A stretch of DNA of 64,000 nt. Source: Halichondria panicea. Its lineage: Eukaryota > Porifera > Demospongiae > Suberitida > Halichondriidae. The notes beneath the pieces are model-generated. The model was not told the DNA's origin and did not search any database. It saw only the letters and a list, made by a program, of their open reading frames with translations. The translations under genes and the position numbers were made by a program. The stretch covers positions 13,946,198-14,010,197 of the forward strand of contig NC_087377.1 of NCBI RefSeq assembly GCF_963675165.1. The letters run 5' to 3'. This document shows positions 1,875-29,205 of this stretch, piece by piece. Every line of letters starts with the position of its first letter. Position 1 is the stretch's first letter.

Positions 1875-2675
1875 TTATAATTTTTGAGTGTCGACGTAGT
1901 CATATTCGTGTAGTGGTTCTTGTGCCCCTAGCTGACCCATACTAGCCGTTAGCTGACCATACGACTGGTTAGACTCTAGCAGTACTTTATCATGGTCGAT
2001 AGCAGGGTGCTCGCTCATTCTCTTTGCTTTCGGTTTCAGTTTGATGTTACTGTACTGACGAGTTAACAAATCTTGTTGGCTTTTGCTCTCTGGAGTAGAA
2101 TATAGCGGGCAAGCAGTCATATTGCTCTTGGCAGTTGAAGACCTCTTGTCTGTGTGCCCGTAAGACTCGTTAGCTTTCAACTCAACTTCTGTCATACCCG
2201 AGACATTGCCTTTGACTTTCGCTAGATCCACCACATCATAGGAGACACTGTTGCTGCGCTGAACTGGTTCCGTTCGTTTAGTGGGTGTAGGTGGTAGACT
2301 CTTTCTGCTGTGCGTTCTCGTTAGCTGACCGCCGTGGGATAAGTTTTTCTCAATCTGTATTAAATTTTGCATTTGAGCTGTTTCAGCAAATGTTTCAGAG
2401 AGTGCTGGTTTTAAATTCTTGCTCGCTCGATGTTTGAGTTGTTGCTGAATTGTATCAGCTCTCGCTTTTTCATTACTCTCTGGAGATGACTGCTTCGGAT
2501 GTTCTTTGCAGCATTTCTTTTGATGCAGACATGCTCCTATTATCATTCCGAGCGGACATGAGAGTATCAATGTCACTACGAAGCAGGTGACGGCAGTAAT
2601 TGCAACCTCTGTGCTTCCAAAAGTCTCTCCACAAATGCAGTTAGTATAGTTAGTATAATTTGTAGTAGAGTACAT
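1875..2675 (-). CDS. Transmembrane adaptor-like protein with a tyrosine-rich cytoplasmic tail
   Basis: This is an uninterrupted 266-residue ORF; an in-frame TAA lies just upstream of the ATG, so the start is well placed if the gene has one coding exon. It has a very short N-terminus with N-glycosylation sequons (NYTNYTN), no cleavable signal peptide, one TM segment at about 23-50, juxtamembrane cysteines (CC at 55-56, possible palmitoylation), then a polar tail. Tail tyrosines sit in SYDVVDL (Y146), SYGHT (Y172), LYSTP (Y192), QYSNI (Y208), SYGQL (Y239) and EYDYVDT (Y258, Y260). A proline site KSLPPTPTKR (125-134) looks like an SH3 ligand. The layout resembles vertebrate transmembrane adaptors (LAT/PAG/LAX type), as analogy only. 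I infer it recruits SH2 proteins after tyrosine phosphorylation, possibly with the receptors next door. It could instead be the last exon of a longer gene. Confidence 0.7.
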   Translation of the reverse strand: MYSTTNYTNYTNCICGETFGSTEVAITAVTCFVVTLILSCPLGMIIGACLHQKKCCKEHPKQSSPESNEKARADTIQQQLKHRASKNLKPALSETFAETAQMQNLIQIEKNLSHGGQLTRTHSRKSLPPTPTKRTEPVQRSNSVSYDVVDLAKVKGNVSGMTEVELKANESYGHTDKRSSTAKSNMTACPLYSTPESKSQQDLLTRQYSNIKLKPKAKRMSEHPAIDHDKVLLESNQSYGQLTASMGQLGAQEPLHEYDYVDTQKL

Positions 2676-3497
2676 ATTCTTTCCGGATTATAGGTCTTGC
2701 AATTGAGTAACCAAGCGCTCGAAAATAGCAAGTACTACACTGAGTGCATGCATTTTGAAGTGTTGATGTATTATATAAATATCACGAAGTTGATAAGGTT
2801 ATGATTATAATTATTAAGGAGTTTCATTTTCTATGCATTGTGTTGTCTGCTGGTGGCACTTAGTGTGGCGTGTTTTCTTCTAATTATTAATTGAATTCCA
2901 CGAAGCTATATATAGCTGCATGCATGTGAATTGGAGATACTAAAGGAAGAGTAGATGAGTGGAATTCAATTGAAGCAGCTTTATAAGACCTTTTGACCCT
3001 GACGATTCTCCTCTGACCTTGGTGTTGATCTTAATCTATTTGGGACTAAAAGACTGAAGTAAAAACTAAAGCTGAAAGCTTACGCTTCTAAGACTGTTTA
3101 TACTACAGACATACATGCAGATTAGATTATTACATCTCTTATAGTGTGACACGAAAATAATTTTTTCCACTTGTGGAATTCCATTAGGTTAATTCTTAAA
3201 GTTGCATGCTTATGCACTTACTGGAAGAACTGCTAATTTTTTTGCAGCACATCATATATACCATGCAGATGATCCATACAATTACAAACAGACTACTTGC
3301 ATTTCTAGCATGCATGATTATCTTTGGCAGCCAGTGGTAACATAATATTTGTGTGCACATGTATGTACATCCTCCCACACCATGAATATCGAATAATAGA
3401 CAGTCAATGCTTAATAGGCCACACACAAGTGAATCGTTGTGAAACTGTAGCTGTGTAGCTAGATCTATAACTACTATAACTGACACTGTCTCTGAAG
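2676..3497. other. Intergenic, no gene seen
   Basis: This AT-rich stretch separates the minus-strand adaptor gene from the plus-strand receptor A. It should hold the promoters of both divergent genes, but I see no specific regulatory motif I can defend. Confidence 0.5.
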
Positions 3498-6306
3498 ATG
3501 GTCAAGTACCACCAATGTCCCAAGAGAAGGATTGTAAGTCTCATGCATTCATTCTGTTGTGTGTGCTATAATTATGATAGATCTACATTGATTAATGAGC
3601 TGCATGTAATTTATAATAGTCTAAGGGTATTATAAATCTAACTGTTTTTATAAACAATATTTCTTTTTGAGATGAGATATAAATCACAGTGTGATGGCAG
3701 CTAGTGTACTGTATGCAAAAGAATATTGGGCTGTTTATGTTCCATAGACCTACTAGCTTGCTCAAGAAAATTCAACATTAATTTGTCCCAACATGAAACT
3801 CAATCCTAGCCCTATATGAATCGAACATATATAATTATATACAGGAGTCATTGATTAACAATTCAAAATCTGCTTGATACTTAGTACATATAATTATAAT
3901 TATTATACATGTACATGTATTATTATGTAACTTGACAAATGGTGAAAGTTAATGTTGTTGTAGCTTCCTACCAGTGTAGTATTTCCCCACTTAGCTATAA
4001 TTAGTATAATCATAACAAGCACTGGCAAGGTTAATAGCACTCGGCTACGCCTCGTGCAATTAGTATCCTTGCCATTGCTTGTTACTCGCGCTATTAATCC
4101 CATATGCATGCATGCATGATATTCGCTATACAAATCTGTATAATTTATGTGTGTTCTTGTTTCCTATAGCTGCCCTCACTCATAATTGCCATCTTCTGGT
4201 TGCACCTATCTCAAGGCACGTTATCTGTATAGAAAAAGACAAGATACATAAATTACACTAATAAGCAATAATTATCTTTAATTGTTGTGCCTACTGGCAA
4301 TAAAGTATAACGTATACAGAGTATACGTGTAATAACAGACACATTTTCACAATAATTTATTGCTATAATTGTTTTTCACTGATTTCCAACATAATTTATT
4401 TTAGAAGCCAGTGTCAACCTAACTGTTGAGGGAGGTATCAATCTACTGGATGAGAACTGTCCTGGAATTGTCACACTGTTCTGTGAGGGGGTGGATATTA
4501 ATCAACTGCGCTGGAGATACAATGAAGTTATTAATATCGTCATATATTCTTCCGACAGTTCCCCGTCTCAAAGTCAGCCTTCACAAACTGCATTTTTATC
4601 TGTCGAATTGGTTGCAATATCACAGAACACAGTGGATACAAATCGAGCGAATTTCACTTCCATTCTCACTGCAAATTTATCTCGACTCCAATCTGATAAT
4701 GTAATGAATATTGAATGTGGTGATGCGGCTACATTTCAAATCGAACCAGTTAATGTGCAAATTATTGATCGAAGCAGACCCAGGGATCCAAGATTCTCTA
4801 TGGTGACAACAGAATATCAATCTGAGAGATTAAACAGTGTGCAAGTACAATGGAGAAAATCTGTAAGTTGACTCGATTTTGATGCATGCAGTAACTGTTA
4901 AGGTCTTACTGCTCATAAATTATGTTCTTCCAGGAAAACTTTTGTCCTGATTACGGTTTGATCTTTTTTTATCAAGTTAACCTTACGGCTGAGAGGTCAA
5001 TTTCTGAGTCAGTAAATCACAATGACTGCCCAAACAATTTCTGCAATGTTACTTTCAGTGAGGGTATTACCGAAGATAATAGAACAATAAAAGTTTCTAT
5101 TTTGGCAACAAGCGAGCTGGGGCCTAGTGAACTTATTTGTTACCCCTATAGTATTGGTAAGTTCATTCTACTGTCTATAATTATAACAACTGTAATTCTG
5201 ATCGATGTCTCATCTATTTTCACAGATTCTTCGGCTCAACAGTATTTTGTACCCCAGGTTTCCTTTATTAATAATCAGTTCCAAGTCCAGTGCATATCTA
5301 CAGCTCTAACCACTAGTAGTCAGAACTGCGGGGTGCGTTATACGACTGATCCACTTTTTAGAGAACTGTCAGATGAGATTACACCAATGTTGGACAAACC
5401 ATTCCACCTACCAGGACTTAGTGCTGATACCACGTACTTCTTTGAGTTTACACTGCTGGTTAATGGTAGCCTGCAAGTTGTGGACCGTATCGGTTTCACT
5501 GCTCAAACAAGTAATTAAAAATTTATGTCCTCACATTGTTTACGTATTTTTTTCAGGCACTGGACTACCAGACTGGGGGATCGCACTGATTGTGCTATTT
5601 GCGATATTTCTGGTTGCTTTAGTTATTATAATAATCGTTGTTGTTGTTGTGCTTTTGATTAAGACAAAAAAAGGTGAGTGAAATAACTGTATAATTATAC
5701 TGCTTTGTAATAACATTTCAGGTACAACAGATTTTGGCAATTTACATATGAGGTAATTTTGCTATAACCATGCATGCTATACTTACTTTCTGTATATATA
5801 CAAGCACTGTATTGCTTTTATTTGTGCAGGCTACCTGATCAGAAAGGTATGTAGATATTCACGATACCTTATATAGTACTACTATTCTGAAGGTAAATTA
5901 AATATGTAGCCTTGCTTTTGGTGGTTTTCACTTGTGTAATGACAATGTATCGATCAAAAACCGAATGTTTGTACACTGATAATTATAAGCTATCTTCACA
6001 GGACACTCCCTGGATGAAATTAAATCTAATGAAGACGTACAAAGTAATTGATATAAGCCTCAGGTATTACAGATATACATGCATATCCAAAAAACTTGTT
6101 CCTGTTAATTGTTATAATTATATAATTATATATACATTTGAGAATTTTAAGTTTGTTGTTAGATCAGCAGATGAACTGCAAAACTTACGTTGCCTGCATG
6201 TTATCATTATGATCGGGCTTTTAATAAGTTAATTTTCCCCTATATAGACGTAAAAAAGAAAATACCTGTATCGAATGACCTATTTTTATTTTTATTATTG
6301 CCATAA
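3498..6306 (+). CDS. Receptor A: Ig-like/FN3-like single-pass membrane protein, tail without tyrosine
   Basis: Exons: 3498-3533, 4170-4215, 4405-4862, 4934-5156, 5226-5510, 5557-5673, 5722-5752, 5830-5846, 6002-6043, 6248-6306 (1314 nt, 437 aa). The first two exons encode a signal peptide (MVKYHQCPKRRI then a hydrophobic run ending LHLSQ). Exon 3 is an Ig-like module: LFCEGVDINQLRWRY with its first Cys and Trp, and a second Cys in NIECGD. Exons 3 (end) to 5 look like two fibronectin-III-like modules. Exon 6 is a TM segment (IALIVLFAIFLVALVIIII) followed by KTKK. The tail is short and contains no tyrosine. Exon lengths match paralogue C (46 nt and 285 nt exons identical). Exon 2 seems to use a GC donor (caag|gcacgt) where C has GT. 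The last three small exons are the weakest part. Function is inferred: cell-surface recognition. Confidence 0.72.
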
Positions 6307-9666: not shown

Positions 9667-12600
9667 ATGATTCTTATCTGTCTTTTCTTCATTTGTTCTG
9701 CTGTTTACAGTCTTCCTGTTAAAGGTAAGTTGTGTAATTTTTCTGTGAGGCTCTATATAGACATGCTTATGTACAGCTAGTTATTTTCAGGGGCTAACGT
9801 GAGCCTATTTGTCAACAATAAAGTGAACATGGCTTGTTCGGTTAATGTCAGTGTGATGCTGATTTGTGAAGGAGTGAATCTTGCACAATTGCAATGGAGC
9901 TATAGGAGCTCTAATTCTCCTGAAATGATTAAACTCGGTATTCCGTTCCTTCCTGATTATCGTGCTAATATTACTGCTGTTGAGGCTATCAATAATCCTG
10001 CTGTTTTGGCAGTTCAACTAGTCACTGTTTCTAAATATGCTGATCAATCACGTGCAAATTTTTCATCCCTTCTTTTTGTTGATCTGTTGAAACTAGAAAA
10101 TCAGGAAATTACTAGCATAATATGTGGTGATGTTAGTACCTATGAGGAAAAGTTGGTATCTGATATTATAGTGTGGGATCTTGTTAATACGAAGATTACT
10201 GCCATGTACTGGCTAGGGGCTCTGACTAGTGTAGAAGTACATCTGAGGAGTTTAGTAAGTTGTTCATAAATACTGAATGCATACAATTTATGTAATCTCT
10301 TTAGTTAATGTGTTCTTCAGTTCTTGTGTACACCATGTCGATTAATGGATCAGATGAGATCAAAATTGTGAAGAGTTGTGTCGGTCCGTTCTGTGAGGTC
10401 AGATTTTCCTCCATAAGAACCATTGTGAGAGAGTACAACATTGAACTGAGTTTGTTTACTACTAGATTGTCTAGGAATAATACAAACCTGTACACATTTC
10501 TAATAGGTGAGACATAAATTATTATTACATCGTACTCTCTTATAATACAGCTATTTATATATAGGGCTCAAAAGTGCAGATTACTTTCATAATCAAGTTA
10601 ATTCAACTAACTGTCTCTATTCAGTCAGTTGTGCAGTTATTCAAAACGACTCTACTTGTACTATACGACACACAACACTGAGTAATCAGCCTATTAATAG
10701 CACGGGAATGTTGAAAATTCCACATTCAAATCCTGGTACAGTCCACACATTTGCGTTTTCAATGGAGGCAAACAAAAATTTACGTATCAAAGAAAACATA
10801 TCTGTTACAGGTATAATTATAGGTTTGGTTCATTTAATTGTTCTATAATTATCATGTTATTTACAGATGGAATCCCTTTTGGGACAAAACCAATTGCCAT
10901 TGTTATCACAACTTCACTGTTCCTCCTTTTGACAGCCATTCATTTCTTGTTACTACTTATAGGAGGTGAGTTACCATTGACTACACATGACCAATTCATC
11001 TCTAATATAATTGCCCGTGCAGCTTGTTGTAAGGTGAAGGCATTTGTCTATAGGAAGAAATATCTTGTTGCTTCCTTGGTGATCCTACTTGTGCTGCTTT
11101 TCATTTGCATTTCTTCATTATTTGCCTTTGGAATCATTTCGTATGGTAAATGTAGATAGTCTTAGTAGAATACGTCTTATTAGATCATGTTTGTCATAAA
11201 TACTGCAATCTGATTGGTTAGAGGAAATGTTCTATCCAATTTAGAAAATCATGTACTTCAATAGAAAATCATGTACTCCACTTAGAAAATCATGTAGCAA
11301 AGATTAGATAAGAACTTTCAAATCTGATTGGCTAAATACTCACAGTTGCTATGGTCTAAAATGCTTAGACACTGTTTAGGAAGTTTCCACATGATTTGGA
11401 AGTCCTCAGGGCTAGTAGAACCCTCACTGCGTTCGGGATACTACAACCAGCCCTTTGGGCTTCTAAATCATATGGAAACTTCCTAAACAGTGTCTAACTA
11501 TTATGTAGAATACTTTTATGCTATATAGCCAGTTGTCCTTACACATTTTCCCATAGGTACACAATGCAGTCAGATTAGGTTGACACTTCACAACAGTATG
11601 CTTGTTACAATGCTGATAATATCGTGTTTGGGAATAACAATTTTGATTACTATTTGGAGTTTTATTGGACACGGGGTGTACAAACATTGCAGTAAGTTTC
11701 ACTTTCTTTTTCCTAACTTGACTATAATACCTATTACGACTGGATATCATGGTATAACTTTATCCCATGTATGTGATTTCTTATTCAGAATCCACATTAC
11801 GATCAGAAAACAGAGATCTTAGGTATGCTCAAAGGAAACGTTTTGGTGCTTCATTATTTTTTCAAAACTACTTAGTAATTGTATATACCAAACTTGTATA
11901 GGAACACACAGCTGGATCATGACTCTAAAACGGATGCTTATTGCACAACACAAGGCAGGAATGCCTATCTTAATCAGGTTCAATGTCTTACTGATATTTT
12001 ACGCCATTTTTTATACAAGCTTGTGATTTAACAGACGGCAGCCAGCTCTAAATACCCTGGAAGGGATGTGAAGTCTAGAGACTGTCAAAAGGTAAAATAC
12101 TCAAACTGCTACTAATGTTTTAATTCCTTTGTGTTATAGAAAAGTCAGTATGATATGCTGGAGCACCCGTTGACAAACAGATTTTCATCCTATAGTTGTG
12201 ATGTAAAGAACGACTTTTATGGGACCCTAAATGAGGTAATTATTGCATGCGTAAGCAATTGAGCATGGCATGCATGCACTTGTGTTGTTAATGTGCATTA
12301 TTGCTATATATAGCTTTATATATTTGCAGGAAGCATTGATTGAGCTGAAGTTGGGAGGTGATCCCTATGAACAGCTGAGACCTGGTGAAAAGTCAAGACC
12401 CGTGCCAAACCTGACAGACACTAGCTACTCCCACAATCCAAAGAGAAAGTCCAAACAAATTTTAACTGCAGCACCTGATGTTGTTTTCAGAAGTAGAAGT
12501 GAGGTAAATAGTTAGTCTTATTGTGCCATTGGGTTTTGTGAAATTTCTTTCTTTTAGGATGAATATGATGTTCTTAGTCGGCAAAGCATTAACTTTCAAG

Positions 12601-12862
12601 ATGCAACCAACGGCAGCAGACTTCACTCCTTTTATGGAGAGCTCAGTCAGGTAAGCACAAACATTGTGTTGTAAATTTCAATCGCATCATCATGCATGCG
12701 CTGTAACAATTACAGGCATCCATTGAGCCTTCTGGAGCTGGACTCTATCTCCAGCTGCGCCATGGTGAGAAGTCAAAGCCAGTGCCCAATATGGACGATC
12801 CTACCTACTCACATGTGCATATCGAACCTGAAGTAGAAGGGTCGCAAGCGAAACCTAATTAA
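9667..12862 (+). CDS. Receptor B: Ig-like receptor, three TM segments, YxxL-rich ITAM-like tail
   Basis: Exons: 9667-9724, 9791-10254, 10305-10506, 10565-10810, 10867-10965, 11023-11145, 11557-11691, 11789-11822, 11902-11977, 12035-12091, 12140-12235, 12330-12503, 12558-12650, 12716-12862 (2004 nt, 667 aa). There is a signal peptide (MILICLFFICSAVYSLPVK), an Ig-like exon (LICEGVNLAQLQWSY; second Cys in SIICGD), two further extracellular modules, and three TM segments at about 328-355, 371-395 and 412-434, with a basic loop (CCKVKAFVYRKK) after the first. The tail of about 230 residues should be cytosolic. It carries YDML (502), YGTL (525), YEQL (543), YDVL (591), YGEL (614) and YLQL (630); Y614 and Y630 match YxxL-x12-YxxL. 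Y476 in AYLNQ fits a Grb2-type site. The 20-residue-spaced pairs Y543/Y563 and Y630/Y650 lie in a duplicated GEKS..PVPN module. Splice phases agree throughout and match paralogue D. The signalling role is inferred from motifs. Confidence 0.85.
11368..11495. repeat. Hairpin element in receptor B intron
   Basis: Inverted arms (gacactgtttaggaagtttc at the left, its complement at the right) enclose a GC-richer loop. Just upstream, agaaaatcatgtact is repeated three times (11240-11300). Paralogue D lacks this insertion in the same intron. Confidence 0.7.
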
Positions 12863-13623
12863 GAGATCCAAGACAACAAAGACTGCACAACATTAGTTTT
12901 GTTAAGACTATTATTGTACTCACAGTGTATAGTTTTCGTTATGTATAGCTATTATGTCTTGTATATAGTTATACTTAGTCTGTCAAATAACCCATGACCC
13001 TGCTGCGATGAAATGATCAACCCCATGTAGAATTTTGCTGCATGCATAGTTGAGTAATGACTTTCATAATGGGTCTTGCATGCGTGGATCATTCTTGTGG
13101 GGATTCTGGTGAACCCTCATGAATTCATATGAGTACCACCCTTTTCTAGGAAAACAAATCATGTGTTTGAGCTCATCAAAATTCCCTAGAGCTATACTGC
13201 TATAGGTGAATATCGTTGTCACTTGCATGTGCTTTGTACGTGTGTTTCATGCATGGGCATCCAATGTCATGTACATCTATCCATATATTATATCTACAAA
13301 CAATTACGGCATTGAATGATGTGAATTAGTTTGCTATACTTCTATAATTATATAGGTGAATATTAATAATTGCTTTCACATGCATGATTGTGTACTAAGG
13401 GGTAAAACACTGTTACAGTAACTACGGAACTCTGATGCTTATACACTGAACTTGCATATTCTCTTTGTTAGGTGGGTGTGGTGTGGGGGCTGGCATTTTT
13501 GCTTTGAGCTCCATGCAGTGCTTCCAAAATTGTCATAATTCTTTGAAAACACAGCTTACATCATTTGAAATAGCTATAGAAACTTTCATTTCCAAGTTCG
13601 TAAATTAGAAATAAATTATTACA
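12863..13623. other. Intergenic, no gene seen
   Basis: This is the 3' flank of receptor B, AT-rich and without a plausible ORF. Confidence 0.5.
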
Positions 13624-13869
13624 TACCGTATAGCGCGAAATTTTCGAGGCACTTATATTTCGTGGATTAGCCTCTAAAAGCATTTTGTTGCACAATGTTC
13701 GCGGAATGACTGCTTACCGGAAGCCACGCCTTTAAATTAAAATCTTTGCACGTTATAGCAGGTAATTCTAATTAAAGAACAATTTTCGTAGACTTTATTT
13801 TCGTGTAGGATTGCTAACCCACGAAATCCGCGAAAAATTAAGCCCCTCGAAAGTTTCGCGCTATACGGT
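13624..13869. repeat. Palindromic MITE, TACCGTATAGCGCG subfamily
   Basis: It begins taccgtatagcgcgaaat and ends with the inverse gcgctatacggt. The core includes ccggaagccacgcctttaaa, shared with the copies at 14689 and 28936. Confidence 0.8.
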
Positions 13870-14688
13870 CGGTATAACTGCTTAACGATTGAGTTTGAAG
13901 TGTTGGATCATGGTTGGATTATTATACTAACACAATATTTGATAATTAGCATTATTGTGTACGAGTTAATATACAGTTGTAATGGTGCTATAATTATATG
14001 CACCACACAATATTGATCTATAGATGTCACTGGCCTTTAACTTTTTATCTGCCATTGACTAATATTGGGTCAAACACGGTGCCCTGCACTACATACACCA
14101 GAAAATAATGTCACAGAGAGAGCACACTGTCAACAACTATAATCGACCCATGTATAGTAAGCATAATTATTTGGGGCGTTCCCCCTCCCTCGCCCAAGTA
14201 TACGTATATGCATGGAACAAAAGCCCCCTTAACCGGGGTTCACGGGCCCCTCGCCTTAATTGATTCGGTCCTTTTAAGCAGCTCGAGACGTCATTTGGTG
14301 GGTAGCCGAGGCCAGGGTGTATGCTACTGTACACGTTGGTATACGAACCTCATCATGTTCTGCTGTATAAATGTCATCCTGCAGTTCCAGGAGTACTTTG
14401 AGGCCACCGAAAACACCAAGAATCCCCTGCACAGCAGCACATTCCGGCCATTATGTGGGAAAAGGGGATAGGTTTCACGGGGGCATTTGATGTGGCTGGA
14501 TTGGGTTACCAATGGGAAAAAGTGAATATCTGCACATGAATTAATCGGGCGAGGTAGCAGATATTGAAATTTTTGCCAGAATCATTCGGCAGATAAAATT
14601 AATGGTTAACCCATCCTAACAATACAACACCCTCCTTGGTGTGATGACCATGAATCTTTTTGGGACTATAAAAGTGTAGCAAAAGTAA
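13870..14688. other. Intergenic between two MITE copies, no gene seen
   Basis: The only ORFs here are short and overlap on both strands with no recognisable protein. The stretch lies between the two duplicated receptor units. Confidence 0.4.
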
Positions 14689-14919
14689 TACCGTATAGCG
14701 CGAAATTTTCGAGGCACTTATATTTCGTGGATTGGCCTCTAAAAGCCATTTCGTTGCACAATGTTCGCGGAATGACTGCTATAACCGGAAGCCACGCCTT
14801 AAATCTTTGCACGTTATAGCAGGTAATTTAACAATTTTCGTGGACTTATTTTCATGTAGAATTCTAACCCACGAAATCCGCGAAAATTAAGCCCCTCGAA
14901 AATTTCGCGCTATACGGTA
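14689..14919. repeat. Palindromic MITE, TACCGTATAGCGCG subfamily
   Basis: This is a second copy, in the same orientation as the one at 13624, 231 bp long, with clean ends taccgtatagcgcg and cgcgctatacggta. Confidence 0.82.
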
Positions 14920-15322
14920 ACTGGATGGATAATAATTATACACTTTCGAGATTTAATGTGCATGCAGGCATGCAAATCAAACAAGTAATTATTATCGTTT
15001 ACAACATTTTACTCTTGACAGTAGCTATAGGTTTGTAGCACATTATACATTAATAGTCATGAACTCATGAATTCAATAGTCAATTGCAAACGCAACATTT
15101 CCCTCAACCAGATGTTATAGACTACAATCTGCTAGCTAGCTATGAATATTCATGAATGCATGGAAGTACATATAGTAGATATGATCTAGTCATGCATCCT
15201 CCTACCCACCCATGAATACATAATCATAATTATAGAGTCACAATACTATCATTATGACACACCCATCTAGTAGATCTCTCTACTGCATATAGTGCCTCTG
15301 TACTGTGTCACTGGCTCAAAAG

Positions 15323-18206
15323 ATGGTCAAGTGCCCTATGTCCCACCAATGTCCCACTAAAAGGATTGTAAGTATCATACATGCATGCATGCATGTATAT
15401 GCTGACTCCATGGCTGTTGTCATGCACTTCTCCTGCTATAATTACAGAGTATTCTACTTTACAAACTTATACTCCAACTATTATAGATGAAACTGAGCGA
15501 TCATCACGTACAGACCTAATATTAATGTGTACCATAATTATAAGTAACTGTTCTAGGTTGATGTATATACTTTAATGGAGCTATAATAATATAGATAATT
15601 ATATATACTGGGTAGTGAAAGTGGATTCTTATATAGCTAGCTGCGTCTACCTGCCATCGATCACATGCACGTATACAGTCATAATTATGTAAATACTTAT
15701 ATTGAAAGTAAATGTACTATAATATACCAGTGGTGGATCCAGGGGAGTTTCAGTGGTTTCAAATGAACCCCCTTAAGAGATCTAATCAGCAACTTACTAG
15801 TCACTGCTATAGCCTGCTGATGTGTGGTTTTAACGCAGATGCGTGACTATTGTGGCAAATATCAATAAAAAACACACATTTTGCCACAATCTCAAGCACT
15901 CTGCGTCAAAACCACACAGCACTTGTGACAGTGCTACATATTAAAACGCTGAGTTAGCAAAGAAACAGGATTTACACACACTCAAGTTCTTGCCACTGTG
16001 CGTGGATGTAAACACATTTTTTAAACTCCCTTTCTTATTTTAGATATGCCACACATTTTTGAAACCCCCTTTCTTATTTTAGATATGCCACTGTATTATA
16101 CTATAATTATGAAGCCATGCAGGGACTTATCCCAGGGTTTTCTACACTTACACGTAGGTATAGCTATACACGCACGTATACACGCTTTTATTTTATTGTT
16201 GCGGTTTTTGGTTAAAGTATAATATACATTCTTCTTGTATCCTGATAGCTGGCCTCGCTCATTGTGGTCACCTTCTGGTTGCAGTTATCTCAAGGTACGT
16301 TACATACTCGAGCAGTACTACTAATATTGCATTCGCTTTACTGTAGTGGTTTGTCAGCAATTAATTTCACTGATTTCCAAATGATTACAGGAGCCAGTGT
16401 CAACCTAACTGTTGAGGGAGGTGTTGATCTAGTGGATGAGATTTGCCCTGGAATTGTAACACTGTTCTGTGAGGGGGTGGACATTAATCAACTGCGCTGG
16501 AGATACAATGGAGATACTAACATTTTCATGTACTCTTCTGATAGTTCCCCATCCCAAAGTCAGCCTTCACAAACATTTTTATCAGTCGAATTGGTTGCAA
16601 TATCACAGAACACGGTGGATCCAGATCGAGCGAATTTCACTTCAATTCTCACTGCAGATTTGTCTCGACTCCAATCTGATAATGTAATGAATATTGAATG
16701 TGGTGATGCGGCTATATTTCAAATCGAATCAGTTAATGTGCAAATTATTGATCGAAGTAGACCCAGGGATCCAAGATTCTCTATGGTGACAACCGAATAT
16801 CAATCTAAGAGATTAAACAGTGTTCAAGTACAATGGAGAAAATCTGTAAGTTGATTTTGATGCCGTATTTGCAATTATTAATTTCTTGCAGGAAAACTTT
16901 TGCCCTGATTACGGTTTAACCTTTGTTTATCGTGTTAACCTTACGGCTGAAAGGTCAATTTCAATAAACCATGATAACTGTTCAAACAATTTTTGCAAAG
17001 CAACTTTTGTGGAGATGGACGGAGAAATTGGAACAATAAAACTTTCCGTTTTGGCAGCAAATGAGTTGGGATCTAGTGCACTCATTTGTTACCCCTATAC
17101 TATTGGTAAGTTTACTAACAACTGTAATTCTGATGGCTCATCTGTATTCTACAGATTCTTCGGCACAACAATACTTCACACCTCAGGTGTCCTTTACCAA
17201 TGATCAGTTCGAGGTTGAGTGCATATCTACAGTTCTAAGCGCTAGTGGGCAGTCCTGCAGTGTACGTTATACAACTAACCCACTATTTACTGGATTGTCG
17301 GATGAGATTACATCAATGCTTGACACACCATTTAGCATACCAGGACTTAGTGCTGATACTATATACTACTTTAAGTTCTCTCTGCTGGTCAATAGCAGCC
17401 TCCAAATCGTGGACCGTATCAGCTTTATTGCTCAAACAAGTATGTAAATTACGATAGTGTTGTTGTTATTACATTATTGTAGGCACTGGGCTACCAGGCT
17501 GGGGAATCGCCCTCATTGCAATTGTAGTGATTTTTTTTGGCATTTCTACTGTCATAATCTTTTCAATATGTGTCCTCCATGCCGTCAGAAAAAAACGTAA
17601 AGGTGAGTATATACTTGTTTAAATCAGTTCCTGCAGTTTGTTAATTTACACAGGAAACATACACTCTACGGATAATAATAATGGGTATGTAGCCAACTAT
17701 ACGGTATAGATCGTATAATTATATTCATGATATCATTCTCTCTTAACTGCAGATGCAAGGATAGTCAGCAGGATGAATCTGAAGTTAGTATAATTATAGT
17801 GCACTGACTATTTGCAGATAAAAGTGTCTTTCTATATACTAGCTGGTATATCTTAATTTCTCAGAAATGTACAGATGTACTCTTCAATGATGACCCTGCT
17901 CGTCGTTCATGTAATACCGAAGAAGTTGACCTTGAACCTGATCAGGTATAATGAATTTAGTCATGCAGTAACTTGAATTGTACACCATTGTTTCCAATGA
18001 AAGACGTTCATTATACCTTTAATTTTCAGCTTGTAACACGTTGTATTACGAGAAATCACAACCTAGCAAACGATATGACTATAAAAGAAGCAAGGGAAGA
18101 GGTATGGTTATAATTATTTTCTTACATATATACTTGCTCTGCGTGATCATAATCAGTGGATAATTCAGTATTTACCATCATGCAGAATTGCACAATTCTT
18201 GCCTGA
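15323..18206 (+). CDS. Receptor C: Ig-like/FN3-like single-pass membrane protein, paralogue of A
   Basis: Exons: 15323-15367, 16249-16294, 16391-16845, 16892-17105, 17155-17439, 17483-17602, 17654-17684, 17753-17783, 17865-17945, 18030-18101, 18186-18206 (1401 nt, 466 aa). There is a two-exon signal peptide (MVKCPMSHQCPTKRI, then LASLIVVTFWLQLSQ). The Ig-like exon (LFCEGVDINQLRWRYNG, later NIECGD) is very close to that of A. Two FN3-like modules are followed by a TM segment (IALIAIVVIFFGISTVIIF) and a basic stop-transfer (RKKRK). The acidic tail (DSQQDESE, NTEEVDLEPDQ) has no tyrosine. The exon layout equals that of A up to the TM exon; the tails diverge. Its first intron contains a candidate TIR element (15728-16093). 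The final 21-nt exon is the least certain. It probably arose with D by duplication of the A-B unit. Confidence 0.75.
15728..16093. repeat. Candidate TIR repeat with internal hairpin
   Basis: The outer words cagtggtgg and gccactg are inverted. Inside, a gtgtggttttaacgcaga arm pairs with its complement (15821-15920), and a block ending ttcttattttagatatgcca is repeated in tandem near 16040-16090. The termini are not certain. Confidence 0.45.
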
Positions 18207-19310
18207 ACAAATTGAATATACCTGCCGTAGTTAATTCATGGCTTGACTTCGTGCATATAAATGTTGCTAGCAGCTATAGTGTCTTATAATTATAATAGGC
18301 CAGATTGTAATTATATCGGTCATTGACAATGTTCACTTTCACTGTCAAAATAATGTTGCCCCTATACAGACGGAATTTTAAAGAGAAAAGGACAATTAAG
18401 ACTTATTCGTGTTTTCTGTACAATTATTTTTGTAGAGACACTAGCGAATGTGCCGTGTAAATAATATTTAAATTGTAGACCTTCTAATAATAATTATATC
18501 CATTATATAGCAGCCATTAAACTGTAAATGATTTAGGGCAGGGGGGGTGCACTGGATTATAATTATAGATAATTACGTATAGATTACATATTTCCAGGTA
18601 AATAATAATATACTTCGAGTCATGCACATCTAAAATTTGATGATACCTGCATGGTAATGCAATGTGAAATGTTGCTAGGATTGTCTGGGGGAAACGCCAA
18701 AAAGGGTAGAAACAAGAAATCCGGCGAGAGAATAACTCCAATCCGTTACAACATCATTCACACGTGCCCCAGACGAACCAGTTTGAGAGAAGAGATCCCA
18801 GATTTACTTTGACCTTTGATTGCATTCTTCGAAACTACAATAATTATACGGAAAATTAGCCTTCTGTAGCTAGGGTAACGATAGCTGCTATAATCCAAGC
18901 AAAGGCAAGAAACCAGGACAAGATGATTAATGTTTTCGTAGCCCTGTTGACCTTGGCTTTCCTCCTCTGGTTAAAGCCTATTGGTGGCTTTCACAATGAG
19001 CATATTATACATCCATAGCACAAATTATAAGACTATAGTATTGTAACACACCCATTAATTATGCACGCATAGACTTTGAATCCTTTTTAGCAACAATCAT
19101 GCATGCATGCATGGTTGATCGTTTCCAAGCATAATTATAATTATACCCTGCATGCGAATGTAAAACTTTACTTCGTTTATGACATAGAGGCAAAAAAACA
19201 GTAACAACAATTTGAACACAAATTTCCTGTCTTTTGCTGGGCTATATATATTTGCAGTTTTGATCAATATTTTGGAGATTTATTATGTTCTATTTTAGAC
19301 TAGTTAAATA
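18207..19310. other. Intergenic between receptors C and D, no gene seen
   Basis: This stretch is AT-rich. It should contain the 3' UTR of C and the promoter of D; no motif can be supported. Confidence 0.5.
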
Positions 19311-22300
19311 ATGTTTGCTACTTTTATATATATATTATCCATTGCCCTTTATATTAAAGGTAAGCTAGTCTTATTAAGAGTATTTTGCAGATTATAGCTC
19401 TAGCTATACTATTTTTTGTAGCAGCAGAAGTTTACCTCACTGTCAAAACTGAAGCAAACACGGTTTGCTCGGATAGTTCCAGTGTGATGCTCGTTTGTGA
19501 AGGAGTGGATCTCGAAGTATTACGGTGGAGTTACAGTAGTCCCAACTCTACTAAAGATATGGATTTGAAGTCGTTCCTTGCAGATGATTCTCCAGAACAT
19601 TATAGCATTGATAACAATCCTGCTTTCTTGACTGTTCAATTGATCGCTGTTTCTCGTTACCCTGATTCAAATGATTCCGCAAATTTTTCCTCTATTCTCA
19701 CCTTTGATCTGTTGGAGCTAGATAATCAAGGCATTACTAGCATAACATGTGGTTATGTTAGTACCTTTGAAGAAAAACAGGTAACTGATATAATAATGGA
19801 TCTTGTCAACACGAAGATCACTGCCAATTACCATATTGGGGCTCTGACTAGCATAGACGTACAACTGAGGAATTTAGTGAGTTTTTAAACCCATGCCTTA
19901 TTATTAGCACTATGGTATTTTCTTTTAGCTGACGTGCTCTTCAATTATCATGTACACACTAATAATCAGTGGACTAGAAGAGGTCAAAACTATGAGGAAT
20001 TGTGTCGGTCCATTCTGTGAAGCCAGATTTTCCTCCATAAGAATCTCTACGAAAGAATACACTGAGTTAACTTTGCTTACTACTATCACTGGAAATAAAA
20101 TAATATCCCGCACATTTCCAATAGGTATATAATTATATAGGATCCCTAGTTAACACATGCATGGTATTCCATTCTACTACTACTATTATAGGTCTCAGAA
20201 GTGACAACTACATTTTTACTCAAGTTAATTCAACTAACTGTGTCTACTCGGTTGGTTGTACAGTCATACAAGAAGATTCTACATGCTCTATACAACATAC
20301 AGTCCCTAGTGAGCAGCCTATAAATGGCATGGAAATGCTAAAAATTCCACATTCAATTCCTGGTACTGTTCATAAATTTAAGTTTTCAGCGATGGAAAAT
20401 AGAAATTTCCATATCAGAGACAATACCTCATTTACAGGTTAGGTTTGATTCATGCACTAATCAATAATGTTGTATCCGTTCTTATGCAGATGAAATTCTT
20501 TTTGGTTTAAGGTCAACTGCTATTCTTAGCACAACTTCACTGTACCTTATCTTTATGGTCATTCACTTCTTACTACTACTTATAGGAGGTAAGTTATATA
20601 CCGTCAACTCAAAATAATGACCAATTCTTCTCTGATAATAATGGAAATACAGCTTTTTGTAAGGTGAAGGTGTTGGTCTATAGAAAGAAATCTCTTGTTG
20701 TTTCTATGGTGATTCTACTCGTACTGCTTGTCATTTGCATTTCTTCATTATTTGCCTTTGGGATCATTTCGTATGGTAAACAGATCAGATAATTTATTCT
20801 TTTCATAGTAAAGTTATTCTTACAAACTTCTTTATTTAGGTACACAATGCAGTCAGGTTAGGATGACACTTCACGACAGTATGCTTGATACAATGTTGGT
20901 CATTTCATGTTTGGGAATAACAATTTTGATTACTATTTGGAGCTTTATCGGATACGGAGTGTATAAAAATCGCAGTAAGTTTCACTTTTATTATAGCCTT
21001 GGAAAATGTTTATTATCCCGAACATACACACCTTGTATTACCCTTCAGAATTCACATTGCGATCAGATATTAGGTAAGTCCTGAGATATGCATTCTGCTA
21101 GCCTCCTTCACACATGCCTCTAATGAAGAAATGCGGCCTGAGATCGAGGCTAGCATTCTGCATGCATGCATTCTTTAATAATGCAACTTTTGTACATACC
21201 TATACCGTAATACTACAGTGGAACCTCTGTTAATAACCATCTCCGAATAAAGGCTGCTATATAACGGCCAGGGCACCCAGGTCCCAAATGAACAGGTTGT
21301 GTATAAAACAACCCCTCAACAAAGGCCACCTCTGTATAAAGGCCAAAACATTGTTCCCCAAAGGTGACCGTTATAGAGGGGTAAGGTTCCACTGTATAAT
21401 GTTTTTGCAAGCTAGTGAGTGCATGGTATAATGGCTTTGCAAAATAAGATTGAAAAGACCTATACCATGCAGTACTTGTATGGCATCATGATCCTTTGCC
21501 TGATCGCAAAGTTAAATCACCAAGTGTCAAAATTAATTTTCTACTGATTTGGCTCAATTTGCAAATGTTTTCACTTGCCTTAATGTGGTAGTTAATTTTG
21601 CCATCTAATTCTATGTTTTTATAGGAACACTGAGCCCAACCATGATCTTAAGGACGCCTATTGCGAAACACAACACAAGAATGTGCATCTCCGTCAGGTT
21701 AAATTTCATATTTATCATTGATATACAAGCCTGCATGTGATTTTACAGACGGCAGCCAACTCTTCAAGTGAAGTTCCTGGGGTGAATATGAGATCTAGAG
21801 ATGGTCAAAAGGTATAATAATTATCATTGAAACAAACTACAGTACTATACTTTTAGTGACTCCATATCATTTCTATCCCTTTGCATTGTAGAAAAGTCAG
21901 TATAATATGCTGGAGCGCCCATTGACAACTAGATTTTCACATAGTTGCGATGTACGGAATGATTGTTATTCGACCGTTAATGAGGTAATTTTATTGTTAC
22001 GCTTGCATGCATTTGTGCTGGTAATGACATTATTGCTACCTTAATTCATGCTGTATAATTTTATAGGGAACATTGATAGAGCTGAAGTTAAGAGATGCTC
22101 CCTACAAACACGAATCAAGATCTGTGCCAAACCTGACAGATCCCAGTTACACTCATATTGCAAAGAGAAATTCACAGTCAATTTCAACTGTACCTGATGT
22201 TGTTTTCAGAAGTAAAAGTGAAAACACGAGGGTAAATATAGGCTTTGTGCTGTTGTACCATTGGGTTTTGTGTTCTTTTATATAGGATAATTATGATGTT

Positions 22301-22619
22301 CTTAGTCAGCAGAGCATTAACTTTCAAGATGCAACAAATGGCAGCAGGTTTCACTCCTGTTATGAAGACATCAGTGAGGTATATAGTAATAAAACTACGT
22401 TGCATCATCGCGCAGTATAGCTAACAATTTTTACAGGCATCCATTGAGCCTCTTGGAGCTGGACTCTACCTACATCTGTACCATGGTGAGAAGTCAAAGC
22501 CAGTGCCCAGTATGGACGATCCTACCTACTCACATGGGCATATCGAACCTGAAGTAGAAGAGCCGCAAGTGAAACCTAAAAGGTTTTCCTTGAAGAAGAC
22601 TGGACAATGCATGAACTAA
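19311..22619 (+). CDS. Receptor D: paralogue of B, three TM segments, tyrosine-rich tail
   Basis: Exons: 19311-19359, 19422-19876, 19929-20124, 20192-20437, 20490-20588, 20653-20775, 20840-20974, 21049-21073, 21625-21697, 21749-21811, 21892-21984, 22067-22231, 22286-22378, 22437-22619 (1998 nt, 665 aa). All 14 exons correspond one-to-one with B; the 246, 99, 123, 135 and 93-nt exons have the same length. The signal peptide is MFATFIYILSIALYIK; the Ig-like exon has LVCEGVDLEVLRWSY and later SITCGY. The three TM exons are conserved. The tail keeps YNML (492), YDVL (577), YEDI (600) and YLHL (616); Y600/Y616 keep the YxxI-x12-YxxL spacing of B. The B sites YGTL and YEQL are changed to YSTV and YKHE. 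The acceptor of exon 2 is ambiguous among three in-frame cag steps; I chose the one aligning with B. An intron holds a 179-bp MITE. Confidence 0.85.
21216..21394 (-). repeat. 179-bp TIR MITE, cagtggaac family, TA target
   Basis: This is the inverted twin of the element at 6994-7172: same length, TA on both sides (21214-21215, 21395-21396). It lies in an intron of receptor D. Confidence 0.75.
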
Positions 22620-22898: not shown

Positions 22899-23222
22899 CT
22901 AGTCATTATTAGGCTTAATGACTCTATACAGGGCCATATCATCGGCAAACATAATTATGTTGTCCTGTGAAATAACTTCTGTTACTTGGTTGATATAAGA
23001 GATGAATAGTAGGGGCCCGGGGCCTAAGACCGAGCCCTGAGGAACTCCAGAAAGGACTCGTAGACTAGTGTATTCCAACAATTGCTCTCTGCCCAGTAGA
23101 TAACTTTTTATCCACTTTACAATGTACTCATTGACGTGCAGATACTGAAGGTGCTTCCGGCGAAAGAGCAACATGTGGGACAGAGTCAAAAGCTTTTTTG
23201 ACATCGAAAAATAATTTATGTC
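22899..23222 (-). pseudogene. LINE reverse transcriptase fragment
   Basis: The minus strand reads LFFDVKKAFDSVPH, then after a frame change a block with SGVPQGSVLGP and MFADDMALY, which are the RT palm motifs of non-LTR retrotransposons. It is truncated at both ends, with a frameshift between the first and second motif. It differs from the LINE at 35853. Confidence 0.8.
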
Positions 23223-24618
23223 GACAGCCCAGGGACAGAGATCAGTAGTGAGAATTGTTGAAGCATTAATCCGCCACTGTTTTTGTGTGCATTGACCTGT
23301 GTTAGCTGGAAATTAAGTGAAAATGCCTTAATTAAAGATATCATGATCAAATCGAAATGTACATGCACTGATCGGCACCGTTCATCACAAAAAGAAAGAC
23401 TTTGGTAACATTGCAGATTAGTTTAACAGTAGGACAGTATGGACCAGGAATTGTGTCTTTTTCATCATCTGTAATTGCACTTACAGACATTCCTATATAA
23501 TTTTGTTGTCGATGTATTCCTTTACTTGAGTACATGACTCCATAAAATAAACCCCATTTACTAACCTTGAGAAGCATACAAGGCTTACCTCGATCTGGAC
23601 AACAACCTGAGAGACGCTTGCCCTGAATGCTTATACTTGACTCAGCTGGACAACCCGCAGATCGCTTTTGGCGTGCAACAGAGGACACCTGCAAACCTGA
23701 ACGCCTCTGTTTCTGCAACCCTTGAGCTGGAGTCCCACCTGAGTCCCAGGGCCGCGATCACTGGAGCAGAGCTGGAGGAGGAAGCAACCATGGGTCAAGT
23801 TGGAGCTATATGAGTCCTAATAATTATGTCTGACCCAAAATTGATTACTCTGGTAGAAAAGCTTATTGACTGAGTGAAAAAACTGGAAGCAAATATAGCC
23901 GGATGCAGGGTTCTGGAACCACATAAGATTCCCATGTTTGGTGGGAGAGAACAGCAAAGAGATGTCCCTAATCGTGAAATTGTCAGTTGGAACTGTGGAA
24001 AGACAGGCCATGTGTCTATAGAGTATGTAGTGCCCCCCCAAAAGACAGCTCAGGAAATTTTCTACCCCCTGTGTGATGGCTCGCACGCAGGAGAGTAGAT
24101 GTACTGAAAATACTACTCACATGCATAAATGTGAGTTGTACATTTACAAAACACTCAATTGATAAACTATATAAACACCTACAGGCGGGTTTTGTGTCGG
24201 AGGCGAGGTGAAGGAAAAAGCACTATATATTCTTTCTTATCGACACAGGTACAACAGTCACCCTGATTCACGGGACGCCTGAGATGACATGCAATACGGA
24301 CAATTGGAGCCATGGGCTGAAGTACGACAGGTAGGAGTCGATGGGAGCCCGTTGACAGTGCATGGGCACGGGCACAGTTATCCAACAAGAGTTGTTTTGG
24401 TAAGTCTACTAACACAGAAACCATTTTTGGGTCTCAATTTTTGCAAGAATGTATAAGGTAAGCATCGATTTTGAGAAGGCATCTGTCAACAACCCCATGC
24501 ACGCAATTCCTTTGGAAAACCACAAGCAATAGGAAAGCCATGCGAAATTAATGACGAGAACTGCAGTTACACTATTATACATCTCGAGCCACTCTTGTTA
24601 ATTGATGTAAGCCAAGAG

Positions 24619-26507: not shown

Positions 26508-28888
26508 TTAGGAGCGAGTATTGTAGTACACAGCCTCTTGAGTATAGCGTGCATATGCTTCATTTCTATTCACTTCGATTTGTTTGAAACGTAACTCGTC
26601 AATCTCTTCATACACAGGGCTCGGACTCCTCTCTGAATTATTGATCACCATGGAGATACCAGTATCGTTGCTGATTGTCTTGTTTCCACTTATCTTCTGT
26701 CGTTTAAGTACCACAGCAATAACCACAATTATGGCTGTCAACAAAAGACAGACCAAGCTTGTTAACCCAATTGAAATACCAATAATTATTTCTTTACTAA
26801 AGACAATTCCATTCATAGTTGTAGTAACAAATTCGTCCATTCCTAAAAATATATAAAAATAGTTATAAGCAATTCACCATAATTGTACCTATATATGTAT
26901 ACCTTGTGAGCATATATGACGGGTGTTGTACACGAATTCTTCTTGCAACTGCAGTGTGTCACTAACGTTCCATTTCAGAAGGAAATAGTGTGATGTGGTG
27001 GTCTCTTGCAATGTTAAAACATTATTAGAAATGAGGTCCTGAGTTGACTGAATTTGCTGGTACAATGGATCTCCTCCATAGTAGTTGCTTACACAGTGTG
27101 TATCATTTCGTACTCTTATTGAGCTAAAGCAGTTAATTTGCAAAGCTGCACAGTTTAGAAACTTAATACTGGGTCGATAGTACAGTGCACTGAATTGATC
27201 TATGAGTGTGTACAATTTCAATGATTATACATAATAATTATGGACTTACGAATAGGACTGATGAATTCATGTGTACTTGTGCCTCCACTGTTAGTTGCTG
27301 TTAGGAAAATCCTGAGACTGGTAGTTAAGAATTCTGTAGCAATAACAATCTTTGCAGTGCATATTGCTGACATGCACTCATTTGATTGGATTTCAGCTGT
27401 CAATAGTATTTCCATCTCATTGTATCTGATACTCAGATCATATTGTATTGGGCTGTAACCACACACAGAGGCAACGTTAACCTGCATTGTGTTATTAGTT
27501 ATAAATGCTAAGTTACACTGGTTATAAAACTCTCACCCAATCAACTTGAATTACTTTCAACTCTCCTCTGTTTGAGTACAAGACAACAACACTCAAAATC
27601 TCGGGATAACTAGGTTCTGTAGAGTTAGGTTGACACAAATTAAATTGCATGCATGCATGCATGGGCTTACCAATAGTGAAATTTCTCCTATTACTAACTT
27701 GATCAACTTCTGAATCATTGATTTCTACCCAGGCTTCGTAAAAATTAATATTTGTTGATGTTAAGGTGTATTGCTCATCAAGACTAGCATTTATCCGAAG
27801 TAAAATTTCGTATAAACTGTTTAGATAAACAACGGAACAAAAGGCGATTGTTGATGCGCTCAGTGGTGATGTACAAAATCCTCTCAATTTGCAACCATCG
27901 TATGTATGTGTAATAGAGAAGTAGTAGTCACTGTTACGAGCTATATATACAGTGTGCATGCGTGATGACCAATTTACATATGAAATTTTAAACTCACCTA
28001 TATATTTCACTGTTTTGTACGAATCTATGATTTGTGAATCACCTGATGGATGTGTATTTGTGAGCACGAGCGTTAAGTTGTGTTCACGATCCTCAATATT
28101 ACGTGCAATGTTTTCAAAGATTCCTATGCAAAACAGACTCCCACATGTGCTGTAATTGACTTGAATGGATTGAGATCCTGTTAAGCCAACTATATATACT
28201 ATTGATTCTAGCATGTGTTCAGGACAAGCAGGTTGCTGTGGGGCACGAATAATGCTGATGAGTGATATCTACATGCATGTATACAACTTTGAATTACCAG
28301 TTTGATCCATGATATTTGCAAGCTGTTTAGTAGACCAGAATGGTAGCAAGCACTGATCGAAGATACTTTAGGATTGTCAGGAGTTGTTTCTTGGGTAATT
28401 ATAGGGTCCACTTGTATAGTCTCAAAGGTGATAACATCTCCGCATGAGATGTCAATAATCCCTTGTGTCTGCAGTTGCTCCACATCTACTGTTAGGACTG
28501 AAGAAAAATGTGTCTGCCCTCGAGCTAAAAACTGAGAAGAAACATTTGTGAGCTGCACAGACAGAAATGCAGGGTAGGATGATAACTGGATAGGTGTAGA
28601 AGATATATCTGAATCAGATACAAAACTACAAATAAAATTATTCCCGTTGTATATCCATCGAAGCTGGACAAGGTTCACTCCTTCACAGAACAGTCTGACA
28701 GTTCCAGGACAGTGTTCACCAACCAGACTCACTCCTCCTTCAACAGTCAGAGAGACTGATGAATTCTGTAATGCCAAAATGTTGCAGCCACCTGGAGGGT
28801 TTCCATAATCATGAGATCACTCATGCCATGAGCTAAGTCTAGACAGCTTACATTCAATAATGAAAAGAAAAAGGTACAGATTTTTCAT
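26508..28888 (-). CDS. Receptor E: long Ig-like ectodomain, one TM segment, YEEI tail
   Basis: Exons in transcript order (plus coordinates): 28888-28852, 28791-28298, 28235-27998, 27940-27671, 27616-27537, 27481-27250, 27199-26903, 26842-26508 (1983 nt, 660 aa). Exon 1 gives a signal peptide (MKNLYLFLFIIE) joined in phase 1. The acceptor at 28792 was chosen because the nearer one would create a stop. The Ig-like exon has LFCEGVNLVQLRWIYNG and later DISCGD, clearly homologous to A-D. It then has more extracellular modules than the others, probably four FN3-like units in alternating exons. A TM segment lies at about 568-595 in the last exon. The tail has SPSPVYEEIDEL, with Y627 in the sequence preferred by Src-type SH2 domains, and further tyrosines at 646, 649, 655 and 656. 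It is placed opposite to A-D across a retroelement remnant. Confidence 0.8.
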
Positions 28889-28935: not shown

Positions 28936-29165
28936 TACCGTATAGCGCGAAATTTTCGAGGGGCTTAATTTTCGTGGATTTCGTGGGTTAGCAATCCTAC
29001 ACGAAAATTAAGTCCACGAAAATCGTTCTTTACCTGCTATAACGTGCAAGATCTAAAGGCGTGGCTTCCGGTAAGCAGTCATTCCGCGAACATTGTGCAA
29101 CGAAATGGCTTTTAGAGGCCAATCCACGAAATATAAGTGCCTCGAAAATTTCGCGCTATACGGTA
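28936..29165. repeat. Palindromic MITE, TACCGTATAGCGCG subfamily
   Basis: The ends are intact (taccgtatagcgcgaaat and its inverse). It is inserted just upstream of the receptor E start, about 50 bp from the ATG, so it may lie in the promoter or 5' UTR. Confidence 0.82.
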
Positions 29166-29205
29166 TATAGCTTAGATGGGCGTGGCCCGCCCATCTATAT
29201 ATAGC

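Follow-up and report, generated by a model that had tools for sequence, protein, structure and literature searches.

We consider two genes, B and D, in a 64,000-nucleotide stretch of the genome of the sponge Halichondria panicea (the window, C1:13946198-14010197, on a contig, C1, of 18138809 bases in a genome of 131 Mb and 39 contigs). Their predicted products belong to a multigene family of surface proteins with three helices each, whose genes lie in a cluster, and both end in a tyrosine-rich tail, here called T1, whose distal pair of tyrosines has the geometry of a broad, long-spaced immunoreceptor tyrosine-based activation motif (ITAM). The interest of T1 lies less in an isolated motif than in its place within a receptor family with two tails, in which members of two ectodomain groups bear either T1 or a dissimilar, likewise conserved second tail (T2). 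A first-pass annotation, made from the letters alone, had pointed to the pair in B and D and placed these genes in a sponge, an origin that is borne out.

The structures of the two genes are obtained by hand splicing, which gives 14 exons in each, GT-AG at all junctions, consistent phases and open frames. Together with the parts of B that the argument needs, they are:

Gene B, 9667..12862, plus strand: 14 exons (9667-9724, 9791-10254, 10305-10506, 10565-10810, 10867-10965, 11023-11145, 11557-11691, 11789-11822, 11902-11977, 12035-12091, 12140-12235, 12330-12503, 12558-12650, 12716-12862), 667 aa, phase-consistent GT-AG splicing, open frame.
B ectodomain, exons 2-4, 9791..10810, plus strand: C...W...C pattern in exon 2; Pfam and PDB searches negative.
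B exons 5-7, 10867..11691, plus strand: three predicted hydrophobic helices, about one per exon; best 19-residue means 2.59, 3.02 and 2.41, with 5, 0 and 3 K/R in the next 15 residues.
B tail cassette 1, exons 11-12, 12140..12503, plus strand: YDML, YGTL-x14-YEQL, YSHN.
B tail cassette 2, exons 13-14, 12558..12862, plus strand: YDVL, YGEL-x12-YLQL, YSHV.
B Y614-G-E-L codons, 12633..12644, plus strand, computed from the exon table.
B Y630-L-Q-L codons, 12746..12757, plus strand, computed from the exon table.
Gene D, 19311..22619, plus strand: 14 exons (19311-19359, 19422-19876, 19929-20124, 20192-20437, 20490-20588, 20653-20775, 20840-20974, 21049-21073, 21625-21697, 21749-21811, 21892-21984, 22067-22231, 22286-22378, 22437-22619), 665 aa, from hand splicing and a spliced aligner.
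D Y600-E-D-I codons, 22361..22372, plus strand, computed from the exon table.
D Y616-L-H-L codons, 22467..22478, plus strand, computed from the exon table.

In the hand-spliced proteins, Y614 (YGEL) and Y630 (YLQL) of B and Y600 (YEDI) and Y616 (YLHL) of D fall on exactly the residue numbers that the first-pass annotation had given, with the 12 residues it had counted between the motifs in either protein, and with the first motif in exon 13 and the second in exon 14. A purpose-written, splice-aware protein-to-DNA aligner with the B protein as query recovers all 14 hand-called exons of D, 12 of them with both ends identical; exon 1 starts 3 nt earlier, exon 14 ends 42 nt earlier (the alignment is local), and one spurious 9-nt exon is added. 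A further copy, F, at C1:14.27 Mb (locus L039, C1:14264500-14273500) is D-like from exon 5 onward, with no recognisable ectodomain exons upstream of exon 5 in its spliced-alignment model. The NCBI model LOC135351581 (P0005, 296 aa) lies wholly inside the hand-spliced exons 6-14 of this copy, so that an independent annotation makes the same junction between exons 13 and 14. A protein search with five T1 tails returns eight proteins at E<=1 among 3269 candidates, namely copy F and seven short frames of 96-159 aa, at least one of which (P0006) apparently reads through introns; a search with the B tail in the range of 367-1167 aa returns none at E<=10 among 198 candidates.

Six genomic loci carry the T1 tail, and each of them is on C1: B, D, F, G (14.036-14.039 Mb), H (14.250-14.253 Mb) and I (14.336-14.341 Mb). 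All six have two YxxL/I motifs in one tail, the distal pair being YGEL-12-YLQL in B, YEDI-12-YLHL in D and F, YGNL-12-YSQL in G and H, and YGNL-11-YNQL in I. Paralogues without constant spacing had been named beforehand as a possible refuter of the motif; the spacing held, at 12, 12, 12, 12, 12 and 11. Shuffling of the six tails (5000 shuffles each) yields a YxxL/I-x(6-12)-YxxL/I pair in 2.4-6.4% of cases, a chance figure that is weak evidence for any one tail. The retention of the pair at six of six loci, across two clades with saturated silent divergence, argues that it is more than chance. Between these clades (B, D and F on one side and G, H and I on the other) dS is 1.8-3.4, which is saturated, dN is 0.55-0.62, and dN/dS is 0.17-0.32 in all nine tail pairs. 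Of the nine tyrosines in B exons 11-14, eight are the same in all six loci; among the other residues the figure is 30 of 160 (Fisher p 2.6e-5, uncorrected for the slow change of tyrosine). The tails of D and F, and those of G and H, are near copies, so that the six loci perhaps represent four informative lineages. Two proteins from ENA contigs (P0011 and P0012), perhaps of other sponges and left out of the T1 counts, resemble by eye a diverged form of T1 exons 12-13, with YEEL and YCEI in the position of the first tyrosine.

The first-pass annotation had also held that the pair stays fixed while the other sites of the tail drift. The drift itself (YGTL to YSTV, YEQL to YKHE) is confirmed, but the contrast is weaker for B and D alone, where exons 13-14 have a dS of 0.154 (bootstrap 0.06-0.31) and a dN/dS of 0.71, while the dS of the ectodomain is 0.65 (0.49-0.88). 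The likeness of these exons is therefore partly low divergence of any kind, and it is the comparison with G, H and I that carries the claim. Gene conversion between B and D in exons 13-14 is not supported by intron 13, which is only 63.6% identical over 55 aligned sites. Exons 11-12 and exons 13-14 are two copies of one four-tyrosine cassette, with the order Y(D/N)x(L/V), Y(G/S/E)x(L/I/V), Yxx(L; E in D and F) and YSH or YTH, and an EKSxPVPN-type stretch is common to most of the copies. The proximal pair, in the first copy, is YGTL-14-YEQL in B, YGKL-13-YEPL in G and H, and YGKI-13-YEPL in I, and it is decayed in D and F.

We turn to the second tail. A protein search with B and D, in which 8000 candidates were scored, gives four proteins, all from Halichondria, that share ectodomain and helices with B (P0004 begins inside the ectodomain) and end in T2. 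The motifs of this tail are VxYDxV, NESYxH, QYS(E/D/K/N)(I/L), NQSY(C/G/S)QL and EYDY(V/I). On C1, about 20 loci have T2, not all of them complete, and one is a minus-strand frame of the window (1875-2687); 24 matches become 20 after merging split ones, and two on other contigs (E about 0.6) are dropped. The T1 and T2 tail searches did not find each other's loci. Ten T2 tails are compared here (seven fetched loci, the window frame, P0001 and P0003; one of them, L059, is shortened): the T1 pair occurs in 0/10, and a first tyrosine of the immunoreceptor tyrosine-based inhibitory motif (ITIM) type in 10/10.

The distribution of the two tails over the ectodomains is given by a tree of the first ectodomain exon, containing five T1 loci, 13 of the 20 T2 loci and three outgroup rows, with F and seven T2 loci left out (exon absent, interrupted or not fetched). 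Each of the five T1 rows adjoins a T2 row. Four of these forks are supported, joining B to the gene at 11.456 Mb (100/100), I to that at 14.347 Mb (99/100), H to that at 14.255 Mb (98/94) and G to that at 13.882 Mb (96/93); the fork of D with the gene at 13.738 Mb is weak (49/44). D is flagged as a long row in this tree, and long branches join the outgroup. The T1 label changes five times, the maximum for five rows, with a mean of 4.5 when shuffled, so that T1 is unclustered; the AU test rejects a tree in which T1 forms one clade (p-AU 3.6e-5). Since T1 ectodomains each stand beside T2 genes, outer parts and tails have been reassorted. A seam is visible in B: compared with the T2 gene at 11.456 Mb, its exons 1-4 are 93-98% identical and its exons 5-8 77-87%; compared with D, the identity is 63-75% for exons 1-4, 86-91% for exons 6, 7, 13 and 14, and 70-83% for exons 5 and 8-12. 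No clean step is found between D and its T2 neighbour in the tree (65-79% in exons 1-4, 72-96% in exons 5-8). The first ectodomain exon is 89% identical between G and H, their tail exons about 99%. Both tails are linked on C1. Four of the six T1 genes, B and D not among them, are followed on their own strand by a T2 tail at a distance of 3.0-7.9 kb; random placement gives this in 0.8% under a model without tandem duplication. Related ectodomains with exchanged tails, as found here, are the pattern of paired receptors. Two T2 genes (L046 at 11.456 Mb and L045 at 13.482 Mb) have stops inside the ectodomain in their spliced models and are possibly pseudogenes or model errors.

Three membrane helices are predicted for the proteins, not one, with about one each from exons 5, 6 and 7. 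The K/R residues in the 15 positions after helices 1, 2 and 3 of D number 5, 0 and 4, and the charge pattern at the three helices, together with a signal-peptide-like hydrophobic start, places the tail of B and D inside by prediction. Isoforms that skip a helix exon are annotated for T2 relatives. Over its first 460 residues P0002 (isoform X4, LOC135348219, C1:13.737 Mb) equals P0001 (isoform X3) minus exon 6, and P0003 (13.410 Mb), which has an additional hydrophobic stretch in the ectodomain, is also without the second-helix exon; both are NCBI isoforms, the exon is in frame with 123 nt, and three and two helices alternate in the family.

For the outer part, C25, W35 and C111 are invariant in nine aligned members and match the B-strand Cys, C-strand Trp and F-strand Cys of an Ig domain (strand names by analogy). 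A comparison by hhalign of the ectodomain with Ig domains of the same genome contains a short stretch that puts the Cys and Trp in register, at a probability of 0.9%. Pfam gives no domain above the cut-off for B or D, and neither they nor the first ectodomain exons of nine relatives match an Ig family at E<=1; a PDB profile search with the ectodomain gives no Ig chain and one other match (E 0.13). Many ordinary Ig_3 domains are present elsewhere in the genome, among the best 150 of 1082 candidates. The term "Ig-like" for the ectodomain of B and D is a guess.

A candidate Syk-type reader for the pair, which the first-pass annotation had in mind, is encoded in the same genome. At about C4:4842461-4853620 two SH2 domains align end to end with the tandem SH2 of SYK (E 2.3e-48, with 2.4e-44 for ZAP-70 and 1.9e-18 for SHP-2), and the kinase exons that follow match SYK at 7.4e-69 and the next family, TYK2, at 3.5e-55; the exon translations are stitched by eye, and a chain labelled EGFR (9p9u, 5.5e-102), which outscored SYK for these exons and also topped the search of another kinase, is set aside. 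C9 carries a Shark-type SH2-ankyrin-SH2-kinase gene (arrangement by eye), whose kinase part resembles ABL and SRC-ABL chains about as much as it does ZAP-70, and a PLC-gamma-like gene (by eye), while an SHP-2-type gene is located on C3 (E 7.6e-79). The genome holds candidate genes for the parts that ITAM- and ITIM-type signalling would need.

With these components, T1 may well be an activating tail that docks a Syk-type kinase, and we hold this tentatively as our best guess among the readings. Contact with a ligand or a neighbour would cluster the receptor, a Src-type kinase would phosphorylate the T1 tail, and the tandem SH2 domains of the Syk-type kinase would bridge the pair to give an activating signal; the T2 relatives, with similar ectodomains, would give another output, perhaps via the SHP-2-type phosphatase. 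What the sequence itself shows is the gene structures, the conservation of the motifs, the reassortment of the tails, and the presence of Syk-type and SHP-2-type genes. An ITAM is described as two YxxL separated by 6-12 residues (PMC9731471), and all six T1 tails, with a spacing of 11-12, fit the broad form YxxL/I-x(6-12)-YxxL/I that had been claimed for the pair.

Several observations weigh against this reading. In the strict sense, an ITAM has a spacing of 6-8 and an upstream acid, and the motif so defined is found in 0/6 tails; an acid at -3 to -1 of the first tyrosine of the pair is present in only two of the six. "ITAM-like" is a fair name for the predicted pair; "ITAM" is not. Besides the pair, six further tyrosines are conserved in the tail. 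The proteins of B and D themselves are absent from the results of all three protein searches, which covered proteins of up to 1167 aa, and the label of Ig-like receptor that they had been given is unsupported by Pfam, the PDB profile and hhalign for B, D and the nine relatives. The assumed cytoplasmic position of the tail stands for B and D as a prediction from their positive-inside pattern; the pattern is weaker in G (1, 0 and 1 K/R after the helices), and P0002 and P0003, without the second-helix exon, would have two helices and a tail that is possibly outside, if both insert normally. In addition, the first distal tyrosine meets the ITIM consensus [SIVL]xYxx[IVL] in all six tails, with S or L at -2.

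This last point can be turned into a different proposal, that T1 is an inhibitory or mixed docking tail, ITIM-like, whose tyrosines recruit the SHP-2-type phosphatase and in which the spacing from the Y614-equivalent to the next YxxL is incidental. The phosphatase gene is there, and several YxxL in each T1 tail permit two-site docking. We nevertheless find the proposal unlikely: the second distal tyrosine (the Y630-equivalent) meets the consensus in 0/6, no other T1 tyrosine fits it in all six tails, and T2, with its ITIM-type site in ten of ten, is at least an equal candidate for inhibition. About equally unlikely is a general, LAT-like scaffold, on which eight conserved tyrosines would dock SH2 proteins singly, with no bidentate pair. 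It would account for the four tyrosines (the Y(D/N)xL and YSH/YTH sites) that lie outside both YxxL pairs among the eight of nine conserved from B in 6/6, and for the duplication of the cassette as a whole, but not readily for a distal spacing held at 11-12, with both +3 residues L or I in 6/6, whereas the proximal pair varies between 13 and 14 and is decayed in D and F.

The YxxL/I sites could also be unphosphorylated endocytic sorting signals of the AP-2 type (YxxPhi), a consensus that all of the T1 sites fit. For endocytic sorting, one site suffices and no fixed spacing is needed; furthermore, in D and F one site has lost its hydrophobic +3 residue but not its tyrosine (YKHE, YEHE), and the YSH/YTH tyrosines are conserved although their +3 residues vary. 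We rate sorting as quite improbable. Least probable by far is the view that the pair arose by convergence or chance and sits in a gene that is decaying or not expressed, even with the share of shuffled tails that contain such a pair, the absence of B and D from the protein searches and the missing ectodomain exons of copy F on its side; all 14 exons are open in B and D, the between-clade dN/dS is well below 1, and the pair is retained in every T1 tail.

If the Syk-docking reading of T1 is joined with the T2 results, a wider proposal can be formulated, which we regard as conceivable and rather doubtful. H. panicea would have a paired-receptor system, a large cluster on one chromosome of three-helix recognition proteins, whose ectodomains are shared by recombination (in B near the exon 4/5 boundary) between Syk-coupled, ITAM-like T1 and ITIM-bearing T2 tails, and in which transcripts that leave out the second-helix exon, with the frame preserved, could place the tail on the other side of the membrane.

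We compare this family with several known systems. Vertebrate ITAM receptors that carry the pair in cis, of the FcgammaRIIA type, likewise have two YxxL/I in one tail at the broad 6-12 spacing (PMC9731471), and the Syk-type kinase is also encoded in the sponge genome; sponge T1 differs in its three predicted helices, an Ig fold unsupported by sequence searches, the spacing of 11-12, the acid before the motif in 2/6, and the eight conserved tyrosines in two cassettes. In Draper, an invertebrate ITAM is read by the tandem-SH2 kinase Shark (PMC8092387), and the Shark-type gene of the sponge, whose domain arrangement is by eye, is a likeness to the Draper/MEGF10 system. Draper itself is a single-pass protein with EMI/NIM domains (PMC8092387), whereas B and D are without a Pfam domain over the cut-off. 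An ITAM is also reported in oyster CgIgIT2 (PMC11999971), Syk-family kinases are reported from sponges, with an Amphimedon sequence used as an outgroup (PMC9601881), and Ig-like receptor kinases and adhesion molecules are described in sponges (PMC2248247).

An ITAM-like motif in early animals had been considered notable; it is not without precedent: a 2025 review (PMC12065747) lists ITIM, ITAM or hemITAM motifs in the candidate allorecognition receptors of the cnidarian Hydractinia and of Botryllus. Hydractinia Alr is, like the sponge family, an early-animal multigene receptor family with reported ITAM/ITIM-type motifs (PMC12065747, PMC11999971); the sponge family differs by its three helices, and no Alr protein is among the four matches from the 8000 candidates scored with B and D. 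The fester co-receptors (FcoR) of Botryllus also form a multigene family, in which related ectodomains come with different tyrosine motifs (ITIM, hemITAM, core YxxI/L/V), and splicing swaps the motifs at some loci (PMC12065747). They differ as type I proteins with V-type Ig, sushi and C2-type Ig domains (PMC12065747), and the same search, with its 8000 candidates, gave no sequence relation to FcoR. The excerpt of a study of the H. panicea immune repertoire (PMC8242945) contains 0 occurrences of ITAM. Among the papers listed in the literature searches, mainly open-access, no sponge receptor with an ITAM-like docking pair was found.

In the paired receptors of vertebrates (KIR, PIR, SIRP), similar ectodomains stand on different tails, the genes are linked and the sequences are mosaic. 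The sponge family resembles them in all three respects and differs in that both of its tails are long and tyrosine-rich, opposite outputs being hinted at by the ITIM-type site of T2 in 10/10; the Xenopus FcR family provides a further comparison (PMC2413239). Ectodomains shared by two tails make it testable whether ITAM/ITIM-style pairing dates from the first animals or evolved anew in cnidarians, tunicates and vertebrates. The one-contig cluster offers candidate sponge recognition loci, and if the paired system is real, one of the earliest animal lineages would have a candidate complex that recognises self/non-self or microbes by activating/inhibitory logic.

The extent of the cluster can be gauged from the first ectodomain exon of gene A, a relative in the window, which has 75 matches at E<=0.001, all on C1 at 11.46-14.54 Mb, with 66 of them within 13.95-14.54 Mb; the corresponding exon of G has 70 matches, again all on C1. 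Some of these matches are fragmentary or contain stops, so the number of genes is lower than that of matches. The other relatives in the window are:

T2-tail open frame, 1875..2687, minus strand: by eye, the N-terminal part is short and there is one hydrophobic stretch; match of the T2 search at C1:13948084-13948458, and a row of the T2 alignment.
Gene A, 4407..5670, plus strand: related ectodomain and membrane exons, short tail; by eye, ends approximate.
Gene C, 16391..17600, plus strand: related ectodomain and membrane exons, tail unmatched by the T1 or T2 searches; by eye, ends approximate.
Gene E, 26508..28765, minus strand: related ectodomain, ends approximate; tail with YEEI and no YxxL/I pair.

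The T2-tail frame is, by eye, without the usual ectodomain and is possibly an adaptor-like relative. Gene C lies within the B-D coordinates and has no match in the T1 tail searches. The YEEI of gene E fits the Src-SH2-type consensus. Also by eye, the window contains short palindromic, MITE-like repeats with shared ends (13620-13870, 14690-14920 and 28940-29170), reverse-transcriptase-like frames (35764-37056 on the plus strand and 22899-23312 on the minus strand) and plus-strand frames resembling a Ulp1/C48-type peptidase (54828-56077). Outside it, kinase domains form arrays at C10:1.70-1.94 Mb, with at least 15 matches, and at C1:15.5-17.4 Mb, with many among the matches listed.

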